Of a DNA stretch of 44,315 nt, positions 20,986-37,398 are shown one piece after another. Source of the DNA: a virus; the IMG/VR virus record IMGVR_UViG_3300010970_000156, positions 1-44,315 of that record; one strand, written 5' to 3'. How positions within the stretch are numbered: position 1 is the first letter of the stretch; each line of letters begins with the position of its first letter. Made by a program: the position numbers and the translations under genes. Below the pieces are notes generated by a model that saw only the letters and a list, made by a program, of their open reading frames with translations, was not told the DNA's origin and did not search any database.

Positions 20986-22605
20986 TCAATAAGAACCTCC
21001 ACCGTAAGGTTTATAGGCATCTTCTGATTCAAATACTGGATTCATCACTACGATATAGCGAAGAGCATCAATTGGGTCTTTCGCAGCACCCTTGTCTCCG
21101 TCACCACCAGTCCACTCTCTCATCGAGTAGATTAGGTTTTGACACTTCTCGGAGATGAACAACTTCGGCTTGTTGATATAGGTGATGGGTTCAGACTGGT
21201 CAAAGTATAGCCAGTCATTAATGATTGACACACCTTGGTCAATCTTGACACCGGCAGCAGGCTTGAAGAACATCGGGTCGTCTCCGTCATTGAGAAGGTC
21301 AATGAGCGTAAACCCGCCTTCCTTGCCTATTGCCTGTGTAGCACCTGCTCTTGGGTCAATGTAACGCTCGGCTATTTCTTCTCCTTCCCCTTCAAAATCT
21401 CGAATAAGTCCTTTATACTCGTCAATACCGCGACCAGCACTCGAACGCTGTGCTGGACCTTCTCTGCCATCTGCTTTAGAGTCGGGAAGTGCCCACTCGC
21501 CATACGTCTCGTCCGGGAACTCACGGTAGATGTAGAAGTCCCCTTCTTTCGTCGCCCTGCACCAGAGCATGAACCAGTTTCTCGCCCCCGCTGGGTCGCA
21601 CGACATATAGTTTGTCCCTTCTTGCGGGATTTTGTCTTCTTTAATGATGTGGGCTTCCGAGAACATCGGGAATTGCGAGCCGACAAGGGCTTGTGCCCAT
21701 CCATACGCTCTGATTTTCTTTTCATAGTCGGTTTTGTTGTCCAACTGCTTCACCATCTGGTCAAATGGAGAATATACGTTGAATTTGGAGTGAAACCAGA
21801 TGATTCCAGAGGTTTTAGAACGACCTTCAGCCAAGTAAGGCATATGACCCTTGGGACAACCAGCGACGTGTATCAAGTTTTGCGGAAGAATGTCCGCTTT
21901 CATTGTTTTCGTGAACTTGCAGCCGTTCACATACTCTTTAACAACCTGCGAGAATCCACCGATAGGAGTAAATGTGATTAGCAGTCTGCCACGGCGGGTA
22001 AGAATACGATATCGGAGCGTTTGAACCCAGTCGAGAGGCACAAGTTCGTCGCACCAGATGAAGTCCGGCTCGCCACCTTCGATAACAACCTTGTCCTGTG
22101 CATAATTCATGAAAATGCACTGGCTTCCGTTAGGAAATACGAACGAGTTGTGCGAAAAGCCGTTCTTAAGGCTGTATTGGATGTTGGTAATGCGTCCCTT
22201 CTTCATCGTTTTGTATTCCGAAGGGATATATTTCCAGATTACGTTCTGTTGCATCTGCACAGACGACATGGAAGTAGTGTGAATACACCACACGATGGAG
22301 TTTGGCTTGTTGCATAGCGTAAATATTGCTCTTTTGGCTGCATATTCAGTCTTTCCGGCTCGATTTCCGCCTAGAATGAGCAGTTCTTCCTTGTTTTTAA
22401 GCATCTCATCGGCATCTTTCCAATGGAAAGGCTCATAGCCATGACGATAAGGGTCTTCTTTTTCAGCAGTAATCTTGTCTTCTCTGAGTTGAATCAGTTC
22501 AGCAACCTTCTCGGCTCCATCTCTTTCAATAATCAGACGCAACGCTTCCTCTGTCGGTTTGACGAGCAACGGATGGTCGCTCATCTTGTCGAGAATAGAA
22601 CTCAT
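20986..22605 (-). CDS. terL: Terminase large subunit
   Basis: The 539-aa packaging motor has Walker A GGNRAGKT at residues 79-86, Walker B FIWCDE at 182-187 with the catalytic Glu, and coupling motif LLITFTP at 208-214. The C-terminal nuclease half has conserved acidic positions at CDP (near 335), RYIDPRAG (near 412) and DALRY near the end. It would pump and cut concatemeric DNA at the portal. The start ATG overlaps the TGA of the gene before it. No clear small subunit is adjacent, which is unusual. Confidence 0.93.
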   Translation of the reverse strand: MSSILDKMSDHPLLVKPTEEALRLIIERDGAEKVAELIQLREDKITAEKEDPYRHGYEPFHWKDADEMLKNKEELLILGGNRAGKTEYAAKRAIFTLCNKPNSIVWCIHTTSMSSVQMQQNVIWKYIPSEYKTMKKGRITNIQYSLKNGFSHNSFVFPNGSQCIFMNYAQDKVVIEGGEPDFIWCDELVPLDWVQTLRYRILTRRGRLLITFTPIGGFSQVVKEYVNGCKFTKTMKADILPQNLIHVAGCPKGHMPYLAEGRSKTSGIIWFHSKFNVYSPFDQMVKQLDNKTDYEKKIRAYGWAQALVGSQFPMFSEAHIIKEDKIPQEGTNYMSCDPAGARNWFMLWCRATKEGDFYIYREFPDETYGEWALPDSKADGREGPAQRSSAGRGIDEYKGLIRDFEGEGEEIAERYIDPRAGATQAIGKEGGFTLIDLLNDGDDPMFFKPAAGVKIDQGVSIINDWLYFDQSEPITYINKPKLFISEKCQNLIYSMREWTGGDGDKGAAKDPIDALRYIVVMNPVFESEDAYKPYGGGSY

Positions 22606-24168: not shown

Positions 24169-24429
24169 TTACTTCTTTTTGTCAAGTATTGCCTTTGCTC
24201 CTGCGACAGAACACAAAGAACAAGAATTTAGCAACTTGATATACTCGCTATCCTTCTGGTTGCCAGTAAAGACCATGATGTTGTCTTCATTGTCAGGCAT
24301 CTTCAGGTATAACACTCCGCTTATCCCATAGTGTTCCAAATTCAGTAGAAACGCTTTGGCATGACCCTCCATCTGTTCTGCTGCGTGAGCAGCGAGAACC
24401 GCATTATTTTTTTTGGGCTTCTTAGGCAT
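24169..24429 (-). CDS. Hypothetical 86-aa protein
   Basis: The ATG at 24429 is preferred because AGAGGA lies eight bases before it, one of the few convincing ribosome sites in the genome; a start at 24447 would add six residues. The product begins with a Lys/Pro/Asn-rich tail, then an Ala/His/Glu helix and a hydrophobic core with two nearby Cys (CSLC) near residues 70-73. It overlaps the previous gene by 8 nt. The function is unknown. Confidence 0.65.
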   Translation of the reverse strand: MPKKPKKNNAVLAAHAAEQMEGHAKAFLLNLEHYGISGVLYLKMPDNEDNIMVFTGNQKDSEYIKLLNSCSLCSVAGAKAILDKKK

Positions 24430-24883
24430 GAATTCGTCCTCTTTCATCGACTCGATTGCGGGAAATGAATCCCTCGGCGGTTTCTTCTACGTCGAGGATA
24501 AGATTTAGACGCATATAGGTATTGTCACGGACCTTGACTTTGACCTTCTGGCCACGGACCTCACAGTCAACGAGACGCTTGTTGGGATACTTACGTTTGA
24601 CAATGCCTAGGCACTTGACGATTTCCTTCTTGGCTACCACAGCAGGGGGCGGAGTCGCTACGGCAGAACCCTCAGATACGAACGTAGGAGCCGGTTGTAG
24701 GCCTTTTGACGACAGCAAGGCTATCACCCCCTTCATCGTCCAAAAAACGGTCGCAGGACGGCTCGACGACTCAGCCACAGTCATCCAGTCAACACCAACT
24801 TGATACTTGTCCGACTTCCGAGCAACTATCAAGTCAGCCTTCGTGAACGGATACTCGGCAATAATCTGTTTCTCTTTGAACAT
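24422..24883 (-). CDS. Hypothetical 153-aa first gene of the late operon
   Basis: The start ATG at 24883 is preceded at eight bases by GGGGA, and a TTG 27 bases upstream lacks this support. The 153-aa product has an N-terminal ~60-residue region with mixed helix and strand, an Ala/Pro linker (about 70-85), and a basic beta-rich C-terminal domain with RGQKVKVKVRDN. It is the first gene after the control region, so a late regulator, DNA-binding protein or small terminase subunit are all possible, but no motif decides between them. Confidence 0.6.
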   Translation of the reverse strand: MFKEKQIIAEYPFTKADLIVARKSDKYQVGVDWMTVAESSSRPATVFWTMKGVIALLSSKGLQPAPTFVSEGSAVATPPPAVVAKKEIVKCLGIVKRKYPNKRLVDCEVRGQKVKVKVRDNTYMRLNLILDVEETAEGFISRNRVDERGRIHA

Positions 24884-24969
24884 AGTCGTTCCCCACAACC
24901 TACACAACAACCAATCCCTGTCGAATTAAAAATCCATACCCCCACCTATTTTTAATCACCGCCCTGTAT

Positions 24970-25069
24970 CTTTATCTACTATTACTATCTCTATTACTAT
25001 ATGGTGCCGGAAAACTGGCGGGGGTCCGCCGGAAAACTGGCGGGGGGGTGCTAGAAAACTGGCGGGGGG
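24970..25069 (-). repeat. Second origin-like iteron array with AT-rich block (inverted copy)
   Basis: Three iterons on a 22-bp period share the core GCCGGAAAACTGGC: 25006-25019, 25028-25041, and a variant starting GCTAG at 25050-25063. Each is followed by a run of five to seven G. Read on the minus strand, the array is followed by GGCACCATATAGTAATA and an AT-rich tract, matching the block inside the initiator gene at 35386-35520 but in opposite orientation on the genome. The iterons would bind the phage initiator, and the AT-rich tract could melt as a second origin or act as a regulatory site for the late operon. Confidence 0.75.
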
Positions 25070-25177
25070 TAGGGGTGTTGATACACGATAGTCAAGTCTT
25101 TTTACCAAAAATTATGCAAGTGAAGATGATTCGCCGCCTGGCCCTCGTCCGGTAGGATTCGACCCCCTCCACCCCAG

Positions 25178-25217
25178 TTAGAATTATTCTAAACTGATTT
25201 TCCGACCTGTTCTAGAA
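25178..25217. promoter_or_regulatory. TTAGAA/TTCTAA palindromic operator candidate
   Basis: TTAGAATTATTCTAA at 25178-25192 is a perfect 7-1-7 palindrome. TTCTAGAA follows at 25210-25217 and a further TTCTAA half-site near 25222. Spacing of the two palindrome centres is about 28 bp. This looks like a binding cluster for a dimeric regulator; the regulator is not identified. Confidence 0.5.
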
Positions 25218-25233
25218 TCGGTTCTAAGGCCTT

Positions 25234-25350
25234 TTGACTGTCAACCCTACCTAGACCATTGACTGTCAATCCGGGCGATTCCTGGGGCAACTGGGATGCC
25301 TTTAAGACCCCATTCCAATTGACAGTCTAAACTGGGGTTTGACTGCCCGA
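25234..25350. promoter_or_regulatory. TTGACTGTCAA operator-like repeats
   Basis: TTGACTGTCAA, a perfect 5-1-5 palindrome, occurs at 25234-25244 and 25259-25269 with a 25-bp period. A degenerate copy TTGACAGTCTAA lies at 25319 and a half-site TTGACTG near 25340. Further half-sites occur beyond the isolated gene at 26019 (TTGACTG) and 26238 (CTGTCAA). The sites also resemble -35 boxes but no matching -10 was found, so an operator for a repressor or activator is the better reading. Confidence 0.5.
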
Positions 25351-25449
25351 AAGAAAGTTGAAAAAAGGTGAAATTAGGCATTGAAAGGGGCGGGGGATTC
25401 GGATTGTCTATCGGAGTTGTTCTTTGAGTGGTCTTAATCAAACCTTCCT

Positions 25450-25527
25450 CCCCGATTCGGGGCGGGAATCCCCAGTAGCAAGCCCCGCTTGCGAACAGGT
25501 TCCAGTAGGTTCCCCCGATTGGGGGAA
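25450..25527 (+). promoter_or_regulatory. GC-rich leader hairpins before the isolated gene
   Basis: CCCCGATTCGGGG (25450-25462) is a perfect palindrome, and TTCCCCC-GATT-GGGGGAA (25510-25527) is a 7-bp hairpin with a tetraloop. Both precede the ATG at 25573 and neither is followed by a T run. They may structure the mRNA leader or serve as protein sites. Confidence 0.45.
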
Positions 25528-25572
25528 ACTGGGGAAGGGTTGAAACGACCGAACAGAGGCAACCCTATCAAC

Positions 25573-25920
25573 ATGGCTGAAGCAAAAAAGAAGGTTCTCT
25601 CCCTCGAACAGTATCGAGCAAACAGGGCAAAGGAAGCGAACCCCGAACAGGTTCGACTGGTCGAAGCAATCGACACCTATCAAGATGCAGGTGCGGGCAA
25701 GATGGCAATCCGTGCCCGACTGGTAATCGGTGGTAAGGTGCTCGGAATCGTTCTCGTCCGATTCGAGGACTTGGACGATTGCAAAGGTCAATGGACTCCC
25801 GCTGTTATCCGCTGGAAAGCGGACAGCGATTCGGTGAAGTCCCTCATTGAAGCAATCGAGGAAAAGGGTTGCGAACTCCCGCCCGAACAGCGGACGGAAA
25901 AGGAGGAATCCGCGGAATAA
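25573..25920 (+). CDS. Isolated 115-aa hypothetical protein
   Basis: The ATG at 25573 gives a 115-aa protein with a Lys/Ala-rich N-terminal helix, a compact alpha/beta middle (around 40-85, including GGKVLGIVLVRFEDLDDC) and a Glu-rich tail. It is the only plus-strand gene in the control region, has its own long structured leader, and is followed 14 bases later by a strong terminator, so it forms a single-gene transcript. It has no visible helix-turn-helix. Its position between two regulatory stretches suggests an early regulator or host-takeover protein, but no family was recognised. Confidence 0.65.
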   Translation: MAEAKKKVLSLEQYRANRAKEANPEQVRLVEAIDTYQDAGAGKMAIRARLVIGGKVLGIVLVRFEDLDDCKGQWTPAVIRWKADSDSVKSLIEAIEEKGCELPPEQRTEKEESAE

Positions 25921-25933
25921 GCGGACTCAAGTT

Positions 25934-25960
25934 AGACCCCCAGAAATGGGGGTCTTTTTT
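25934..25960 (+). terminator. Rho-independent terminator of the isolated gene
   Basis: AGACCCCC and GGGGGTCT form an 8-bp stem around the loop AGAAAT, immediately followed by a run of T. This is a textbook intrinsic terminator 14 bases after the stop codon of the 115-aa gene. Confidence 0.9.
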
Positions 25961-26111
25961 GTGCCTATTTCCTGGGCGTCCGGCGCCGAGGGGATTGCTC
26001 AATTTCGATCAACCCGGCTTGACTGGAATCCCAGTAGCCCCGGAATCCTGGATTTGCCCCAGTCCAACTGTCATTCATCTTCCTCCGCCAGTTGTAATAC
26101 TGTAAAAGCAT

Positions 26112-26212
26112 TACGTCTATTAATTCATTAAATGCATTAAATCATTAATTACATTAATTCATTAAATACGTTAATTCATTAAATGCATTAGTTCAGTAAA
26201 TGCATTAAATGG
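26112..26212. repeat. AT-rich tandem repeat array
   Basis: About 100 bases consist of variants of TTAATTCATTAAATGCATTA. Clear copies start at 26120, 26154 and 26171 and a degenerate one at 26191, with intervals of 34, 17 and 20 bp. ATGCAT recurs within them. The array lies in the ~500-bp gene-free stretch (25921-26427) between the isolated gene and the accessory operon end. It could be an easily melted DNA segment, a partition or packaging site, or an array for a DNA-bending protein. Confidence 0.6.
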
Positions 26213-26375
26213 TAGCGTTCATTGGGTTATTTGATCACTGTCAATGCTTGTAAATGGTTCACTTCATCAGTCTTATCCTTTAAAACCAATAGTGTAATGA
26301 TGCCGGCTCTACCGGATTGTGGAACCGCGTATTTTGACAGATACTACCTATCAAGCATAGCAAGCAGGCACAAAA

Positions 26376-26400
26376 AAGGAGCATTCCTAGTGCTCCTTGT
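26376..26400. terminator. Bidirectional terminator ending the accessory operon
   Basis: AAGGAGCA (26376-26383) pairs with TGCTCCTT (26391-26398) around a 7-base loop. On the minus strand the stem is followed directly by a T run (CAAAAAA on the plus strand), so it ends the leftward accessory operon. On the plus strand T-rich sequence follows after two bases, so it may also stop rightward transcripts. Confidence 0.8.
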
Positions 26401-26414
26401 ATTTTTATTTTTTT

Positions 26415-26441
26415 ATTATTGGTATCGTTAATACCAATAAT
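26415..26441. promoter_or_regulatory. Perfect 11-bp inverted repeat
   Basis: ATTATTGGTAT (26415-26425) and ATACCAATAAT (26431-26441) flank CGTTA. The repeat overlaps the last codons and stop of the 41-aa gene and lies about 15 bases before the terminator. It may be a second transcript-end hairpin or a protein-binding site. Confidence 0.5.
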
Positions 26442-26553
26442 TGTATTCGAGTTCTGCTTCTGCCTTGAGTAATAGTAGTTTTACACGAACCCAGTAATCC
26501 TTGTAATCCAGGATATGCTGGTCTAATTCAATTGTATTATCCGGAGGGTGCAT
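26428..26553 (-). CDS. Possible 41-aa gene at the accessory operon end
   Basis: An ATG at 26553, inside the end of the 133-aa gene, opens a 41-aa frame ending at 26428 just before the operon terminator. The product is amphipathic and coherent, with acidic and aromatic residues, LLLLKAEAELE near the C-terminus and a Tyr/Trp end. The 17-nt overlap allows translational coupling; there is no Shine-Dalgarno. Coding status is plausible but not certain. Confidence 0.45.
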   Translation of the reverse strand: MHPPDNTIELDQHILDYKDYWVRVKLLLLKAEAELEYNYWY

Positions 26554-26938
26554 CGAATGGATTGACTTTAGCCTTTGTTAGTTTCAAGTAACGCTTGGCA
26601 TTGTATTCTTTGAAGTATTGCTTTCGTTTGAAGTAATACTCCTTTTGATGCTTTCGTTTCTCTGCTTTAGTTAGACGCTTTCCTGCCGGACCACCAAGTG
26701 CCGTAATGATAGAACTATCCAATTTGGGAGATTGCCGCTTTGCTTCAATTCGATCGCTTTCAGCCTTCTTCAATTCCTGCTGTTTGTTCCATTCTTCAGT
26801 AGAAATCATTTTGTACATCACTACCGGTTTACCAATTACGTTAACTGCTTTGACTTTAGGCTTTGCCGACTTCTTCAAAGTCAACTTGCACACGGAGTCA
26901 AGCAATTGAATTGGGACGTGTAATCGTTTAGGGGTCAT
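26537..26938 (-). CDS. Basic 133-aa hypothetical protein
   Basis: The 133-aa product is strongly basic. It has a beta-like N-terminal third and a C-terminal Lys/Arg/Tyr-rich helical region (about 88-125, with KRKHQKEYYFKRKQYFKEY) that could bind nucleic acid. It starts after an A/C-rich leader and an intercistronic hairpin. It is next to the amidoligase gene but has no recognised domain linking it to that chemistry. Confidence 0.6.
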   Translation of the reverse strand: MTPKRLHVPIQLLDSVCKLTLKKSAKPKVKAVNVIGKPVVMYKMISTEEWNKQQELKKAESDRIEAKRQSPKLDSSIITALGGPAGKRLTKAEKRKHQKEYYFKRKQYFKEYNAKRYLKLTKAKVNPFDAPSG

Positions 26939-27001: not shown

Positions 27002-28471
27002 TTACTCTACTCCGTTGTCAATAGACTGGAAAGCCTTTGCATAATTAGCGAAATTAGGCAAAGCGTTCTGTTGATTGTTGAGGTAGGTGGACTCGAACTT
27101 GAGGATTCGACGGAACACGTAATGCTTCAAACCGATATCAGCATCCGATTCCATGAATTCCTCAAGAGTAGCAACACTAGTGTAAGGTTTAGCCAAGTAT
27201 TGCATGAACGCACACCAATACTTCAACTTGTAGAAGTTGAGCGTCGGCATACCCAGTCGAACCTCTACCGTTTGATGCTCCGAGATACATTGAGTATTCA
27301 CAGCGGTGTAACGATTGTTCTGCCACTCGCGGTCGATGCCGCAGTAGGTATTATGTGCTCGGGTAAACGATACCGTTCGATGAGCCCAGGTATTCAGAGC
27401 ATCACGGATTTTGCTAGCGGTGCGAGAAGCCGACTGTGCCGTGCGGTGTCGCATATCAATATGCACATGGTTTCCACAACTGTTATTAACGCCGGCACCA
27501 TTAGAAGTCATGGCTTTCAGCACCTGCTCCATGTTCTTCCAATCGTTGGAAGACGAGCCATTGATGAACCACGTCAATTCCTGGTATTGAGCGAGTTGCT
27601 CGGAATCACGATTAGGACGGATGCTACCATCACCCTTAAAATACAACCACGGGTGAACAGGGTAATCCTCGTGGTCCCATGATACGATATCACTACCAGC
27701 ACTAGCAACAAACTCCAACTCGATTCCGAGGCATTCACCGGAAGGACGAAGACGATTGGCGATAGTAGCCTGAGAACTCGTCAAACTGGAGTTCCAGCGA
27801 TGCGGACGAACACTAGTAATGTTCTGAAGCAAGTGATTGAAGCGTTGACCAAGCGTCATGTTTCCGGTGCCACGAGCAGCAGTGGTTCGCCAGTGATTAC
27901 GACGATGGTTGATTCGGGTAAACCAGCGACATACTTGGATGATGTTTCCATGCAAATCGAGGATTTCCTGGCCTACTGTGGCCTGTTCAAACGTGTTATT
28001 CTGCTTATGCTCGATTTCGTTGTAAGTGAAACTCGAAGCCTTCATGCGTTCCACCATAAGGTAGCGGTCATACATAAAGCAGTCTTGAATCATCTGATGA
28101 TGCTTACCGACATACGAAAGCAGGTTATTCGACGGATTGTCGGACAACTTGATATCGATCATTTGCTTCATCATGTTGCAACGGCTAACGATAGTATCGA
28201 TAGAGATACTAGCACGATGGCCACGCTCGAAATACTGGTGTCCGGTAAGTGCTACCTTAATCAGAACCGGGTTATTTCGGTAAGCAACAGGAATGCTATT
28301 CCAAGAAGCAATACGAGCCTGATTGAATTCCTCACGACGAGGAACATTCATGCCGATATTAGTTCCATGAACAATCATACCATACACTTCCAACTGTTTC
28401 TGCCGGAGCGTCGGCTTGCTCGAAAGGAGCAATTCAACTGGCTTCGGATTAGGGGTTTCTTCTTGACTCAT
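27002..28471 (-). CDS. Amidoligase (Amidoligase_2/COOH-NH2 ligase family)
   Basis: The ATG at 28471 follows an A/C-rich leader and gives 489 aa; an upstream start at 28513 would read through that leader. Residues from about 240 on carry the family marks: GIELEF 249-254, KGDGSI 279-284, QELTWF about 297-302, CGNHVHID 332-339 and TVEVRLGMPTL 401-411, a layout like glutamine-synthetase/GCS-type ligases that join a carboxyl to an amine using ATP. The first ~240 residues form an unrecognised helical domain rich in His and Arg. The gene lies downstream of a class II glutamine amidotransferase in the same operon, a pairing described for predicted peptide- or metabolite-modifying systems in bacteria and phages. 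Substrate and product are unknown. Confidence 0.85.
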   Translation of the reverse strand: MSQEETPNPKPVELLLSSKPTLRQKQLEVYGMIVHGTNIGMNVPRREEFNQARIASWNSIPVAYRNNPVLIKVALTGHQYFERGHRASISIDTIVSRCNMMKQMIDIKLSDNPSNNLLSYVGKHHQMIQDCFMYDRYLMVERMKASSFTYNEIEHKQNNTFEQATVGQEILDLHGNIIQVCRWFTRINHRRNHWRTTAARGTGNMTLGQRFNHLLQNITSVRPHRWNSSLTSSQATIANRLRPSGECLGIELEFVASAGSDIVSWDHEDYPVHPWLYFKGDGSIRPNRDSEQLAQYQELTWFINGSSSNDWKNMEQVLKAMTSNGAGVNNSCGNHVHIDMRHRTAQSASRTASKIRDALNTWAHRTVSFTRAHNTYCGIDREWQNNRYTAVNTQCISEHQTVEVRLGMPTLNFYKLKYWCAFMQYLAKPYTSVATLEEFMESDADIGLKHYVFRRILKFESTYLNNQQNALPNFANYAKAFQSIDNGVE

Positions 28472-28553
28472 GTTTTTGTTTTGTTTTGGGTTTTCGTCTC
28501 TTCCGGGTTCCACGAAGTTGTGGGATTGTCCGGATTCAACAGAAAGGAGGGAA

Positions 28554-28590
28554 AGTTTTACATCACTATTTCTAGTGATGCTTTAAAACT
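28554..28590 (-). promoter_or_regulatory. Long hairpin between amidotransferase and amidoligase genes
   Basis: CATCACTA (28561-28568) pairs perfectly with TAGTGATG (28573-28580) around TTTC, and AGTTTTA (28554-28560) pairs with TAAAACT (28584-28590) across a 3-base bulge. On the minus strand it lies between the two coupled enzyme genes, with only a weak downstream T content. A processing site or attenuator that sets the enzyme ratio is possible. Confidence 0.6.
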
Positions 28591-28653
28591 CAATTTAGTT
28601 CTGTTTTTGAACTATGGTAATTGATGAATTAAAGATTTGTGAGAAGGCCAGGA

Positions 28654-29715
28654 TTAGTAGCCGTAGTCAGAATCCTTCCAAGGCTTGACTTGCTTGCGGG
28701 AGTTCTTTTTCGACCGTTCCACGGTTTGCTGGTGATATGCGTCAAGGATGGCTTGCTCTTCCGCTTCAACTACATCAGCAGGAGTAGCAGGAGGAGTGCT
28801 AGTAACAACAGAAGGGACAGCAGGAGTCGATTTGTGGTAACTCCCATAGCCCGAGTATCCGTGGACTCCGGCAGAACCAAGGCTTCGATAAATGCCGGCA
28901 GTTGAGGAATACGACATTTTGTTGTCAAACTTGGGAAACTCGACCGAGGAGATTTCTCCGTTTTCATGAAACACGTGCTTTACGTAATCTGCTAGCATCA
29001 TGGGAGTGCTAATGTTTGCATTCTTGATCGAATTGAAGTCGCACAACATTTTCGTCAGTTCGTCGCAATGCGTCTTATCCGTGCAAATTACGTAGGAGTC
29101 GAGTTCTACGATGTATGACATGAATAGCGGTGCTTTATTATCACGAAGCACAAACATATTGCCTAATGGGTCAATTCCAATGACAGCAGCGTAACCGGAA
29201 ATCCCGTCCTTGAAGGATTGCTCGCCGTCAAGGTGAAGGAAGCAATTCAACAGGTGCTCGGAATCACAGGTTGTGTTAAGCGGTAGTTTCACACCGGACC
29301 ACTCAACGATACCGTTATGAGCAATCGTCCAGTTGCCGTGCTGGTTCATTCCAGTAAACGGATGCGTATTCTCAATTGTCTTACCACAAGTAGCAGTTCG
29401 ACCATGAGCAATGAAGCATCCGTTGATTGCACCCTTCTTGGGTTTTACACCATCCGTGTCAAAGTCGATTCCTTCGATCAGTTTGGTTCGGATGTTGCTT
29501 TTAAGCATATCAACGCTTTCTTTTAGGGTGCCAAGACCAGCGACATAATCAGCCGAAAGATAGCGTTCGGTGTATTGACCATTCTGGTGCTTGATAGAAA
29601 AGCCGAAACCGTCCTTTTGGGAGGCTCCGAGCAATTCACTTGACCGCTTAACCAGAAGCGATGCCTGTTTGCTGTTTTTAGTCGAAACGCGACTAATAGC
29701 GATTAACTTACACAT
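28654..29715 (-). CDS. Class II glutamine amidotransferase
   Basis: The 353-aa product begins MCKLIAIS, placing the catalytic Cys at residue 2 once Met is removed, as in Ntn-type glutaminases. Further family motifs are DGFGFS 35-40, HGRTAT 104-109, HPF 118-120, AHNGIV 132-137 and CDSEHLL 150-156. The domain would free ammonia from glutamine for a partner enzyme. No synthase domain follows; the C-terminal ~90 residues are Pro/Thr/Ser-rich and then Lys-rich, probably flexible. The downstream amidoligase is the natural partner. The start follows an A/C-rich leader without Shine-Dalgarno. Confidence 0.9.
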   Translation of the reverse strand: MCKLIAISRVSTKNSKQASLLVKRSSELLGASQKDGFGFSIKHQNGQYTERYLSADYVAGLGTLKESVDMLKSNIRTKLIEGIDFDTDGVKPKKGAINGCFIAHGRTATCGKTIENTHPFTGMNQHGNWTIAHNGIVEWSGVKLPLNTTCDSEHLLNCFLHLDGEQSFKDGISGYAAVIGIDPLGNMFVLRDNKAPLFMSYIVELDSYVICTDKTHCDELTKMLCDFNSIKNANISTPMMLADYVKHVFHENGEISSVEFPKFDNKMSYSSTAGIYRSLGSAGVHGYSGYGSYHKSTPAVPSVVTSTPPATPADVVEAEEQAILDAYHQQTVERSKKNSRKQVKPWKDSDYGY

Positions 29716-30234: not shown

Positions 30235-30258
30235 TCATCTTTTTTCTACCTAATACTT
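30235..30258. repeat. 24-bp direct repeat, copy 1
   Basis: A 24-base sequence beginning TCATCTTTTTTCTACC and ending TAATACTT is repeated exactly at 30299-30322. The flanks after each copy are also alike (TTCTACTAATT and TTCTAGTAATT), so the unit is about 40 bp with a 64-bp period. It lies in the 270-bp spacer before the small coiled-coil gene, in which I see no gene. Confidence 0.8.
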
Positions 30259-30298
30259 GAATTCTACTAATTCGACTATTTTCCACCAAGGGATTTTT

Positions 30299-30322
30299 TC
30301 ATCTTTTTTCTACCTAATACTT
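30299..30322. repeat. 24-bp direct repeat, copy 2
   Basis: This is the exact second copy of the repeat at 30235-30258. On the minus strand each copy carries an A-rich run preceded by TAGGTAG. The pair may be duplicated promoters or regulator sites for the amidotransferase/amidoligase part of the operon. Confidence 0.8.
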
Positions 30323-30720: not shown

Positions 30721-30795
30721 TGGAGCATCGGGCGGGACTTGAACCCGCAACATCCTCATTACAAATGAGGTGTTCTACCATTGAACTACCGATGC
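30721..30795 (-). tRNA. tRNA-Thr(TGT)
   Basis: The reverse strand folds as a cloverleaf with acceptor GCATCGG/CCGATGC, anticodon stem CCTCA/TGAGG and loop TTTGTAA giving anticodon TGT (reads ACA). CCA is encoded at the 3' end, unlike the other phage tRNAs here. Confidence 0.92.
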
Positions 30796-30799
30796 AAAA

Positions 30800-30871
30800 T
30801 GCGGCAGACAGGACTTGAACCTGCAACAACCTGTTTGGAAAACAGGCACTCTACCATTGAGTTACTGCCGC
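30800..30871 (-). tRNA. tRNA-Gly(TCC)
   Basis: Acceptor GCGGCAG/CTGCCGC, anticodon stem CCTGT/ACAGG and loop TTTCCAA give anticodon TCC (reads GGA). The T arm has GGTTCAAGTCC. CCA is not encoded. Confidence 0.92.
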
Positions 30872-30877
30872 TAAATG

Positions 30878-30950
30878 TAGGCGTGAGGGGATTCGAACCC
30901 CCGACTTAAGCCTTATAAAGACTCCACTCTAACCGCTGAGTTACACGCCT
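30878..30950 (-). tRNA. tRNA-Ile(TAT)
   Basis: Acceptor AGGCGTG/CACGCCT, T arm GGGGGTTCGAATCCCC and anticodon stem GAGTC/GGCTT with loop TTTATAA give anticodon TAT (reads ATA). Most bacteria read ATA with a CAT anticodon modified to lysidine, so a genomic TAT anticodon is unusual. CCA is not encoded. Confidence 0.85.
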
Positions 30951-30956
30951 GTAAAT

Positions 30957-31025
30957 ACTCCAACTAGGATTTGAACCTAGACTAGAAGGACCAAAACCTT
31001 CCGTGCTACCATTACACTATTGGAG
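30957..31025 (-). tRNA. tRNA-Gln(TTG)
   Basis: Acceptor CTCCAAT/GTTGGAG, anticodon stem GAAGG/CCTTC and loop TTTTGGT give anticodon TTG (reads CAA). The T arm has AGGTTCAAATCCT. One more A-T pair could extend the acceptor at 31026. CCA is not encoded. Confidence 0.88.
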
Positions 31026-31099
31026 TGAGAGGGACGGCCCTCGGACATTGCTATCAGTTATAGTCCTCTTGGCCTTGGGTTAATTACTCCCCATTATAA

Positions 31100-34291: not shown

Positions 34292-35104
34292 ATGAGCACT
34301 CCCAACGGCAAGATTATCAACGGCATTTCTTCTGAGGAATATGATTCTTGGACTGGCATTAACGCCTCGTCTTTGAAGAAATTCCTTATCAGCCCCCTCC
34401 ACTACAAGGACTGGCTGGACAAGAAGGATAACGAGCCTACCAGCGACGCTTTCCGTCTCGGAACTGCGATGCATATGCTTATCCTTGAACCTCATCTTTT
34501 CGATGAGTCTTTCAAGATTGCACCCGATGTTGACCGCCGAACTGTTGGTGGTCGTATGGCTTGGCGTGAGTTCGAATCGCAACTGAATGCCGAACAGGAC
34601 AATTACGTTGATACCAAGGAAATGAATATGCTTGGTGCCATGTCCAAGAGCGTTGCAAAGAACTCTCTGTGGAAGGCTCTCAATTCCGAGGGCGATAAGA
34701 TTGTCAAGGAAGCAGGATTCGAGTGTGAGTATATGGGCATCAAGATTAAGGGTCGCCTTGATTTCTTCAATAAGACGCAGAACATCATTGTGGACTGGAA
34801 GACTATCAACGACACCCCCACCAAGCGAACTGTTAAATCTGAAGTTTACTCCAAGGGCTACGATGTGCAGAACTTCCTTTACCAGAAGGGTGTTGAAATC
34901 GTTACCGGAGTTAAGCCCAAGTTCTACTTTGCTTTTGTTGAAAAGAAAGCCCCTCATGCTATTGGATTCTACGAACTACCGGAATGGCGAATCAATGAAG
35001 TGAAAGAAATGGTAGATATCGAGTTGGTCCGCATGGAGAATGCAAAGAAAACCAATATCTATGCTGGACTCCCCAGCGAGATTTGTCCTATGATGCTTGA
35101 ATGA
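34292..35104 (+). CDS. RecE/Exo8-type 5'-3' exonuclease (PD-(D/E)XK)
   Basis: Counting from the ATG at 34292 (270 aa), the fold marks are visible: LKKFLISPLHY near 29-38, RLGTAMHMLILE at 55-66 with His61, GRLDFF at 154-159 with Asp157, IVDWKT at 166-171 with Asp168 and Lys170, and YDVQNFLY at 190-197. This matches the exonuclease VIII C-terminal domain, which makes 3' overhangs for an annealing protein; an ERF annealer lies three genes downstream. An earlier start at 34274 is possible. Its stop overlaps the initiator start as ATGA. Confidence 0.85.
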   Translation: MSTPNGKIINGISSEEYDSWTGINASSLKKFLISPLHYKDWLDKKDNEPTSDAFRLGTAMHMLILEPHLFDESFKIAPDVDRRTVGGRMAWREFESQLNAEQDNYVDTKEMNMLGAMSKSVAKNSLWKALNSEGDKIVKEAGFECEYMGIKIKGRLDFFNKTQNIIVDWKTINDTPTKRTVKSEVYSKGYDVQNFLYQKGVEIVTGVKPKFYFAFVEKKAPHAIGFYELPEWRINEVKEMVDIELVRMENAKKTNIYAGLPSEICPMMLE

Positions 35105-35787
35105 GCGACAAACAATCAATGTTTTCTGGGGTATTCATTCCTCGTGAAGTCTTGCTGGACGCAGATATTACTGCGTCTGGCAAGATTATCTTCGCCATCA
35201 TCCAGTCTCTTGACAACGAGAAGGGATGCTTTGCGAGCAATGAGTATATCGGCAAGATGCTCGGACTGTCGGAATCGTCAGTTCGTGCAAGCATCGGGGA
35301 CTTGATTAAGAAGAATTACATCAGCCGTGTGGTCAACGAATGTGGCCTACGCACCATTCGCACCTGTTCCACGGCATCCTTCTTACCCCCCCAGCAGATT
35401 TCTGGCACCCCCCGCCAGATTTCTATCGCCCCCCCGCCAGAAAACAATCGCCCCCCCGCCGGAAAACTGGCACCATATAGTAATAAAGATAATAATAAGG
35501 ATATAAAGACATTGATGTTGCCTCCTCTACCTCATTCTGACTCATTCCATAAGGTCTGGGACGATTGGGTGGAGTATCGCAAAGAACGCAAGAAACCCCT
35601 CACTCCAACAACAATCAAACAACAACTAGAATTCCTCTCCAACCAAAACGAACATGACGCAACCCAATCAATTATTCTCAGCATCCGCAACGGATGGCTT
35701 GGTATCTTCCCTGTTGGCGGGACTACCAGCAAGCAAATCAAGTATCAGCCCAAGCCCCTCACAGCCGAAGACCACAATGCGTTCTAA
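35101..35787 (+). CDS. Lambda O-like replication initiator with an internal origin
   Basis: The 228-aa product has an N-terminal winged helix-turn-helix (about 10-80: FIPREVLLDADITASGKI, then NEYIGKMLGLSESSVRASI), a Pro/Gln/Asn linker (about 95-130) and a C-terminal helical domain (147-205, with WDDWVEYRKER and SIRNGWLGIF) like the helicase-loader-binding part of phage initiators. The linker is encoded by four iteron repeats followed by an AT-rich tract, the same design as lambda O, whose gene contains the origin. The next gene is a DnaC-like loader. It would bind the iterons and recruit the loader with host DnaB. Confidence 0.8.
   Translation: MSDKQSMFSGVFIPREVLLDADITASGKIIFAIIQSLDNEKGCFASNEYIGKMLGLSESSVRASIGDLIKKNYISRVVNECGLRTIRTCSTASFLPPQQISGTPRQISIAPPPENNRPPAGKLAPYSNKDNNKDIKTLMLPPLPHSDSFHKVWDDWVEYRKERKKPLTPTTIKQQLEFLSNQNEHDATQSIILSIRNGWLGIFPVGGTTSKQIKYQPKPLTAEDHNAF
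35386..35520 (+). repeat. Intragenic replication origin: iterons plus AT-rich tract
   Basis: Four 14-bp cores preceded by C runs lie at 35393-35406 (variant), 35414-35427, 35436-35449 and 35458-35471. The last is GCCGGAAAACTGGC; the spacing is 21-22 bp. Immediately to the right is ACCATATAGTAATAAAG and about 45 bases of A/T-rich sequence without GC runs, fitting a DNA unwinding element. All of this lies inside the initiator gene. A related array sits at 24970-25069 in the opposite orientation. Confidence 0.8.
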
Positions 35788-36460
35788 TAAGTGTGAATGC
35801 GGTGGCAGTCGTATCCCTATGACTGACGGCTCCAAGATTATCTGGCCGGACTACTTCTGCTTCTTCTGCAAGGACAAGTATGAAATCAGCCGTGACGCAC
35901 GATACCGTGAACTCAACTGGGCTATTGAACCTATTGGTATGCCAGTAGTGTTCCAAGAGACAGTCATTGAACAGATTCCCTGCCCCAAGATGCGTGACGT
36001 CGCATCAAACTGGAATTCCTGGGGTAATCGTTCTCTGTTACTTCATGGAACCACCCGACTTGGTAAGTCCCGAGCCGCATACGAAGTAGCACGTCGCTAC
36101 TGGAAGTCTCAATACAAGAAGCAACAGTTCATCACGATGCGTAAGTTCGAACAGAACATCGAGGAAGGCTTCTCCAAGTTTAACCACAACCAACTGGTTT
36201 CCGGTATGATTAACGTCCCATTCCTGTTCATTGACGACTTGGGCAAGGAAAAGATGACTGCCCGAATCGCTTGCGACCTGTTTGCCGTCATTGACGAGCG
36301 AACCATTAATCACCGCCCTACTGTCATTACGACTAACTTTACATCCGCTGGACTGTTGAGCCGTTTCGATGATGTGGAACTAGGCAAGGCTCTAATGGGT
36401 CGCTTCAAGGACTTCTTTGACCTCGTAGGTGCCACGAAGAAAGATGAAAATATCTCTTGA
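35777..36460 (+). CDS. DnaC-like helicase loader ATPase
   Basis: The ATG at 35777 overlaps the initiator stop and gives 227 aa; a longer frame from 35654 would run inside the initiator gene. Cys6, Cys8, Cys28 and Cys31 form a zinc-binding N-terminus. The AAA+ core has Walker A GTTRLGKS (91-98), Walker B FLFIDDL (149-155) and sensor-like TTN (185-187). DnaC/IstB-type loaders open the host DnaB ring on single strands. Together with the initiator it forms an O/P-like pair; no phage helicase gene is present. Confidence 0.85.
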   Translation: MRSNKCECGGSRIPMTDGSKIIWPDYFCFFCKDKYEISRDARYRELNWAIEPIGMPVVFQETVIEQIPCPKMRDVASNWNSWGNRSLLLHGTTRLGKSRAAYEVARRYWKSQYKKQQFITMRKFEQNIEEGFSKFNHNQLVSGMINVPFLFIDDLGKEKMTARIACDLFAVIDERTINHRPTVITTNFTSAGLLSRFDDVELGKALMGRFKDFFDLVGATKKDENIS

Positions 36461-37295: not shown

Positions 37296-37310
37296 CAAAT
37301 AATTGATACA

Positions 37311-37380
37311 GCCCCGTAGTTCAACGGATAGAACACCCGCCTTCTAAGCGGGTTATCTTGGTTCGATTCCAAGCGGGGCT
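37311..37380 (+). tRNA. tRNA-Arg(TCT)
   Basis: Acceptor GCCCCGT/GCGGGGC, anticodon stem CCCGC/GCGGG and loop CTTCTAA give anticodon TCT (reads AGA). The T arm has TTGGTTCGATTCCAA. It lies 15 bases after the ERF gene in the rightward operon. CCA is not encoded. Confidence 0.92.
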
Positions 37381-37398
37381 AGTTTCAAAACAAACAAA

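Follow-up and report, generated by a model that had tools for sequence, protein, structure and literature searches.

The phage genome analysed here carries two origin-type blocks, one (block A) inside the gene for a lambda-O-like initiator and the other (block B) in the leader of the late operon, and the presence and place of block B are conserved among its relatives. We hypothesise that block B is a second initiator site of the same type as oriR in phage SPP1, which when bound would act as a barrier to replication forks, or as a place for their restart, and so aid the switch to concatemers. We regard this reading as having about an even chance of being correct.

The window (the whole stretch of DNA analysed, 44,315 nt, record IMGVR_UViG_3300010970_000156) has identical ends of 55 bp, and is taken as a complete, circularly permuted phage genome of 44.26 kb. 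Early genes occupy the plus strand from approximately 31.6 to 40.4 kb, and the remaining genes, including terminase, scaffold and capsid, are on the minus strand. A set of recombination helper genes is present, encoding a DUF3799/RecE-like exonuclease, an ERF annealing protein and a RusA resolvase. No phage DnaB was recognised among the early genes scanned (some small ORFs fell outside the scan), and a host search of bacterial genomes with the alignment of the major capsid protein found no relative. Elsewhere in the genome, an amidoligase-like gene and a class II glutamine amidotransferase-like gene adjoin at 27002-29715, and both are kept across the clade. Genes for tRNA-Thr, Gly, Ile and Gln stand in a row (30721-31026), with a single tRNA-Arg gene in the early operon (37310-37381); near the tRNA cluster, at 30235-30322, is an exact 24-bp direct repeat, TCATCTTTTTTCTACCTAATACTT, with 64 bp between the copies. 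The features relevant to the two blocks are as follows.

35101-35787, plus strand: initiator gene, lambda-O-like (phrog_678, E 3e-22; HTH_36).
35654-36460, plus strand: DnaC/IstB-like helicase loader gene, overlapping the initiator gene (phrog_50, E 3e-20; IstB_IS21).
35387-35509, plus strand: block A, inside the initiator gene, identified from sequence as a motif cluster.
35387-35473, plus strand: the four iterons of block A, starting at 35387, 35408, 35430 and 35452 (spacing 21, 22 and 22).
35474-35509, plus strand: AT tract of block A, identified from sequence.
24939-25069, minus strand: block B, leader of the late operon, likewise identified as a motif cluster.
25048-25069, 25026-25047 and 25004-25025, minus strand: the three tandem, near-palindromic iterons of block B, on an exact 22-bp period.
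24963-25003, minus strand: AT tract of block B, a candidate DNA unwinding element.
About 24945-24958, strand not assigned: isolated fourth iteron of block B, degenerate in the window.
24992-25008 on the minus strand and 35469-35485 on the plus strand: boundary motif GGCACCATATAGTAATA, a 17-mer identical in A and B.
24897-24924, minus strand: TCGACA-N16-TAGGTT, a candidate late promoter separated from the late ATG by 13 nt and picked by eye from aligned leaders.
24422-24883, minus strand: first gene of the late operon, encoding 153 aa of no known family, with a homologue after block B in all ten genomes compared.
20986-22605, minus strand: gene for the terminase large subunit (phrog_2, E 1e-13), by which the late operon, downstream of block B, is recognised.

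The two blocks share a plan: three or four near-palindromic iterons with a period of 21-22 bp are followed by GGCACCATATAGTAATA and then by a C-poor AT tract. A blastn comparison of the initiator gene with the rest of the genome gives a match of 103 nt (78%, E 6e-19), as against E 0.84 for the reversed query, and the ungapped inverted repeat between A and B is 91 nt long with 78% identity. GGCACCATATAGTAATA occurs exactly twice in the genome and its reversed control pattern not at all. Clusters of the iteron motif are found in the window at A and B only, and Markov shuffles have a mean of 0.1 close pairs per genome. The junctions of the two blocks are 10,467 bp apart and, in the window, inverted.

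These results uphold the initial annotation in its recognition of two origin-type blocks, and in the exact 22-bp period of the B iterons. Its count of three iterons in B against four in A is right for the tandem iterons, but leaves out the isolated degenerate iteron of B. Its statement that the blocks have the same 14-bp core is correct as to a shared motif, but holds only because the core is a near-palindrome, GCCRG-WWWW-CYGGC: read in block orientation, the boundary iteron is GCCGGAAAACTGGC in A and the reverse complement, GCCAGTTTTCCGGC, in B. These opposite senses partly explain why the A-B identity is no higher than 78%, and they suggest a symmetric binding unit.

It could be argued that the similarity reflects a recent duplication, or else a chance or trivial repeat made of low-complexity G/C runs and an AT stretch. 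Simple sequence of this kind (G runs, AT-rich DNA) is indeed present, but the blastn match stands against clean reversed-query controls, and the two blocks are found in syntenic positions with diverged linkers in ten diverged genomes. Together these refute the explanation, and we give it a negligible probability.

The AT tracts have further features in common. In both, C is nearly absent from the strand running from iterons to AT tract. On one strand, the period-3 pattern TnnT is found 43 times in the A tracts of the ten genomes, with 22.5 expected, and 44 times in the B tracts, with 27.2 expected; both comparisons use related genomes with kinship ignored, and the A tract is coding. The strand polarity of TnnT in both tracts is that of the B. 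subtilis DnaD recognition element (DRE) sequence of PMC10201434. A DRE-like feature is a lead only.

An AlphaFold model of the initiator contains a winged helix (residues 15-88), a disordered linker (91-138) and a helical C-terminal domain, and the linker is the part that is encoded by the iterons and AT tract of block A. Block B is non-coding, although both its iterons and its AT tract are kept. Beyond the AT tract, some 60 bp from the boundary iteron, stands the isolated iteron of B, which is clear in five relatives (G002, G006, G012, G013 and G014) and absent from block A. Fold searches with the initiator and with the first late protein returned only generic winged-helix and OB-like matches, none below E 0.001. 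A distant blastn search of the B region against named phages gave no match, and neither did Rfam over 24500-26600. The suggestion that the first late gene encodes the small terminase subunit was rejected, as no family supports it.

Relatives were obtained from IMG/VR by pattern and protein scans, which added nine clade members with sufficient sequence, making ten with the window; two of the nine (39.5 and 28.4 kb) may be incomplete. The number of iteron clusters is exactly two in all ten: the first lies within the initiator gene, the second ahead of the homologue of the first late gene, and they occupy syntenic positions 8.5-11.7 kb apart. Across the ten genomes A matches B with E values between 5e-5 and 6e-19, and no reversed-query control did better than E 0.09. 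No genome that could be judged keeps only the intragenic block; in four shorter contigs of the clade, which are outside the ten-genome counts, the initiator-side block alone was found. With synteny retained throughout, and with both linkers and cores diverged, the proposal that the pair is a functional unit which the clade has conserved, and not a recent duplication, is supported.

The blocks also change together. G005 has CTAGCACCATATAAGACTA in both of its blocks and G011 has CTGGCACCATATAAGACTA in both; CACCATATAAGACTA is common to both blocks of these two genomes, and the remaining genomes have CATATAGTAATA in B. These two genomes differ from each other only in having CTAGC or CTGGC ahead of the boundary, and here too A and B of the same genome agree. 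More generally, A-B distances within a genome are smaller than in shuffled pairings (permutation p 1e-4, with kinship ignored). Joint change of this kind could reflect either sequence exchange between the blocks or the adaptation of both to one initiator. The evidence that a single initiator serves both sites, namely the common motif and the joint change, is only indirect.

The orientation of block B, by contrast with its place, varies. A and B are inverted in seven of the ten genomes (the window and six relatives) and direct in G006, G012 and G014, where B has been flipped in place with the direction of the late gene unchanged, so that the tandem iterons, instead of the AT tract, adjoin the late gene. 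These three form one clade in the structural-protein tree (support 0.994), and a single flip event therefore suffices. What is conserved is thus the presence and place of B, and not the inverted orientation that the initial annotation described. Since orientation varies within the clade, its suggestion of an origin firing the other way cannot describe a conserved function.

Its two functional proposals, a second origin and a late switch controlled by the initiator, are each possible. As a second active origin, B would be used together with A or after it. It contains every part of A (iterons, boundary and AT tract), with an iteron beyond the AT tract in addition, and oriR of SPP1 has been termed a late replication origin (PMC3485210). 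Against this, the flip in one clade would reverse a one-way origin, theta replication in SPP1 is reported to start at oriL, and GC3 skew gives no signal, having no clear change at B and no clear sign of fork direction. We consider a second active origin rather unlikely. An in-place flip suits a roadblock better than it suits a directional element, and a fork barrier or theta-to-sigma switch, which the initial annotation did not raise, fits an orientation-independent site better than either of its proposals.

Orientation independence would equally be compatible with a copy-control site, at which B pairs with A through the initiator or titrates initiator away from it (handcuffing), as in iteron plasmids; the presence of two iteron sets for one initiator and the near-palindromic sites point the same way. 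A phage of lytic style would however gain little from copy limitation, and titration alone would preserve neither the AT tract nor the fixed place before the late genes, which makes this explanation distinctly improbable.

The position of block B raises the question of transcription. It does lie at the head of the late operon, as had been proposed, and in all ten genomes it occupies the first late gene's leader; nine of them have 87-125 bp between junction and start codon, and G014 has 367 bp. In the window B ends about 20 bp upstream of the candidate promoter at 24897-24924, and six relatives have weak matches to the same layout between B and the ATG, a TTGACA-like and a TANNNT-like element 16 bp apart. 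A scan with the consensus sigma-70 promoter gave fewer matches than the shuffles did, and called no late promoter, 24897-24924 included. B could on this basis be mainly a transcription switch, at which initiator bound just ahead of the late promoter would either activate late-operon expression or repress it, making the virion genes depend on replication or on the amount of initiator; SPP1 itself needs an early factor for late transcription that has yet to be identified (PMC6316719). The weak promoter calls count against this, as do the greater distance in G014 and the flipped genomes, in which it is the tandem iterons and not the AT tract that stand by the promoter. A pure operator, moreover, would have no need of the parts that B has in common with the origin, the AT tract and the boundary. 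We regard a switch as unlikely. A combined role is conceivable, in which the initiator is also a late-gene regulator and the bound origin-type block, fused to the late promoter, couples a fork block or second initiation to the onset of virion genes in either orientation; this we find quite unlikely.

Other repeats are found in the region upstream of the late gene. A tandem array, AT-rich and with a period of 17 bp (TTAATGCATTTAATGAA), occurs at 26109-26208, approximately 1.2-1.3 kb upstream of it. Arrays of the same period occur at -1.1 to -1.7 kb in G001, G002, G005 and G011 and are absent from the other five relatives; except in G001, their units are largely different in sequence from those of the window. 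Palindromes of the TAGAATAATTCTA type (25180-25240), about 295-345 bp before the late ATG, are common to the window, G001, G005 and G011, and farther relatives have an element of the TTTTTTTACAAAAA type about 175-460 bp before the late ATG.

We return to the reading of block B as a second initiator site like oriR. Theta replication would most likely start at block A, the intragenic origin. The O-like initiator would bind the iterons of B as well as those of A. At B, about 10 kb from A, it would form a tight nucleoprotein complex, which would most likely block forks or restart them. This would help the switch to recombination-dependent, concatemer-making replication, in which the exonuclease, ERF annealing protein and RusA resolvase of the phage could be used. 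The binding of both blocks by the initiator, the standing of A as main origin and a barrier or late-origin role for B are inferred. We favour the SPP1-like reading because of the two clusters in all ten genomes, their joint change, the tolerance of a flip, the precedent of SPP1 and the helper genes. Arguing against it, the conservation of the AT tract in B is not obviously needed for a site that is only a barrier, B is placed at a candidate late promoter, and the GC3 skew lends no clear sign of fork direction.

Lambda has its ori in gene O, where an AT-rich tract follows four near-palindromic iterons, and the loader gene adjoins. The window has all of these: an O-like initiator gene, intragenic near-palindromic iterons with an adjacent AT tract, and the loader next door. 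Lambda differs in having no second copy (best self-match E 0.42), where the window has block B. Iteron plasmids and multi-site replicons (R6K, and P4 with ori and crr) have one initiator and two separated groups of binding sites; the likeness of R6K and P4 to the window is one of description and not of sequence comparison, and a literature search for P4 ori/crr found nothing. A search for second origin copies gave none above controls in lambda, most of PM1 and parts of HU1, Cruim01, Ceridwen and RCIP0034. Three further records (L109, L110 and L071) have short or local self-matches of E 0.003 to 1e-4 that are better than their reversed-query controls; weak self-matches in several other phage records were mostly no better than such controls.

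The closest parallel is SPP1, where oriL is inside the initiator gene 38, oriR is some 12-13 kb away in the late region, and gp38 binds both (PMC6316719, PMC3485210). It has been proposed, as a model only, that gp38 bound at oriR stalls forks and triggers sigma replication (PMC6316719, PMC3485210), a limit that also weighs against the reading preferred here; gp38 at oriR may also restart stalled forks (PMC5615212). Sequence comparison with this layout used the SPP1-like phage 049ML001 (NC_070625), in which the replisome-organizer gene matches a late intergenic region over 79 bp (82%, E 1e-14), in direct orientation and about 13.9 kb apart. As in block A, the origin of SPP1 and 049ML001, with repeats and an AT tract, is inside the initiator gene. 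Their late region too holds a second copy, about 10-14 kb away, with repeats and an AT-rich tract, and B, at 10,467 bp (8.5-11.7 kb in the relatives), likewise occupies a non-coding late stretch. The circular maps are of 44-45 kb, with a RecE-type exonuclease, an annealing protein and RusA nearby.

There are also differences. The SPP1 and 049ML001 repeats are unrelated in sequence to the window iterons. As to membership of the G38P family, the 049ML001 replisome organizer has no detectable pairwise similarity to the window initiator (hhalign probability 0.1%); both match phrog_428, 186 and 345, with different best matches. SPP1 has a G39P loader and a phage DnaB, whereas the window has a DnaC/IstB-like loader and no recognised DnaB. 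SPP1 oriR is inside the late region, and block B heads the late operon, beside a candidate late promoter. The copies in 049ML001 are direct, those of the window inverted, and those of the clade variable. The window thus appears to work like an SPP1-type dual origin, but we do not class it as a member, given its different type of loader, its different orientation and an initiator whose family could not be matched. In the literature found, what is said of the function of a second origin-type site in phages rests on SPP1. The present clade provides an independent case, with unrelated iterons, a lambda-O-like initiator and a similar spacing; the flip of B is a natural experiment on whether orientation matters, and the location of the second site at the late operon makes a link between replication mode and late transcription testable.
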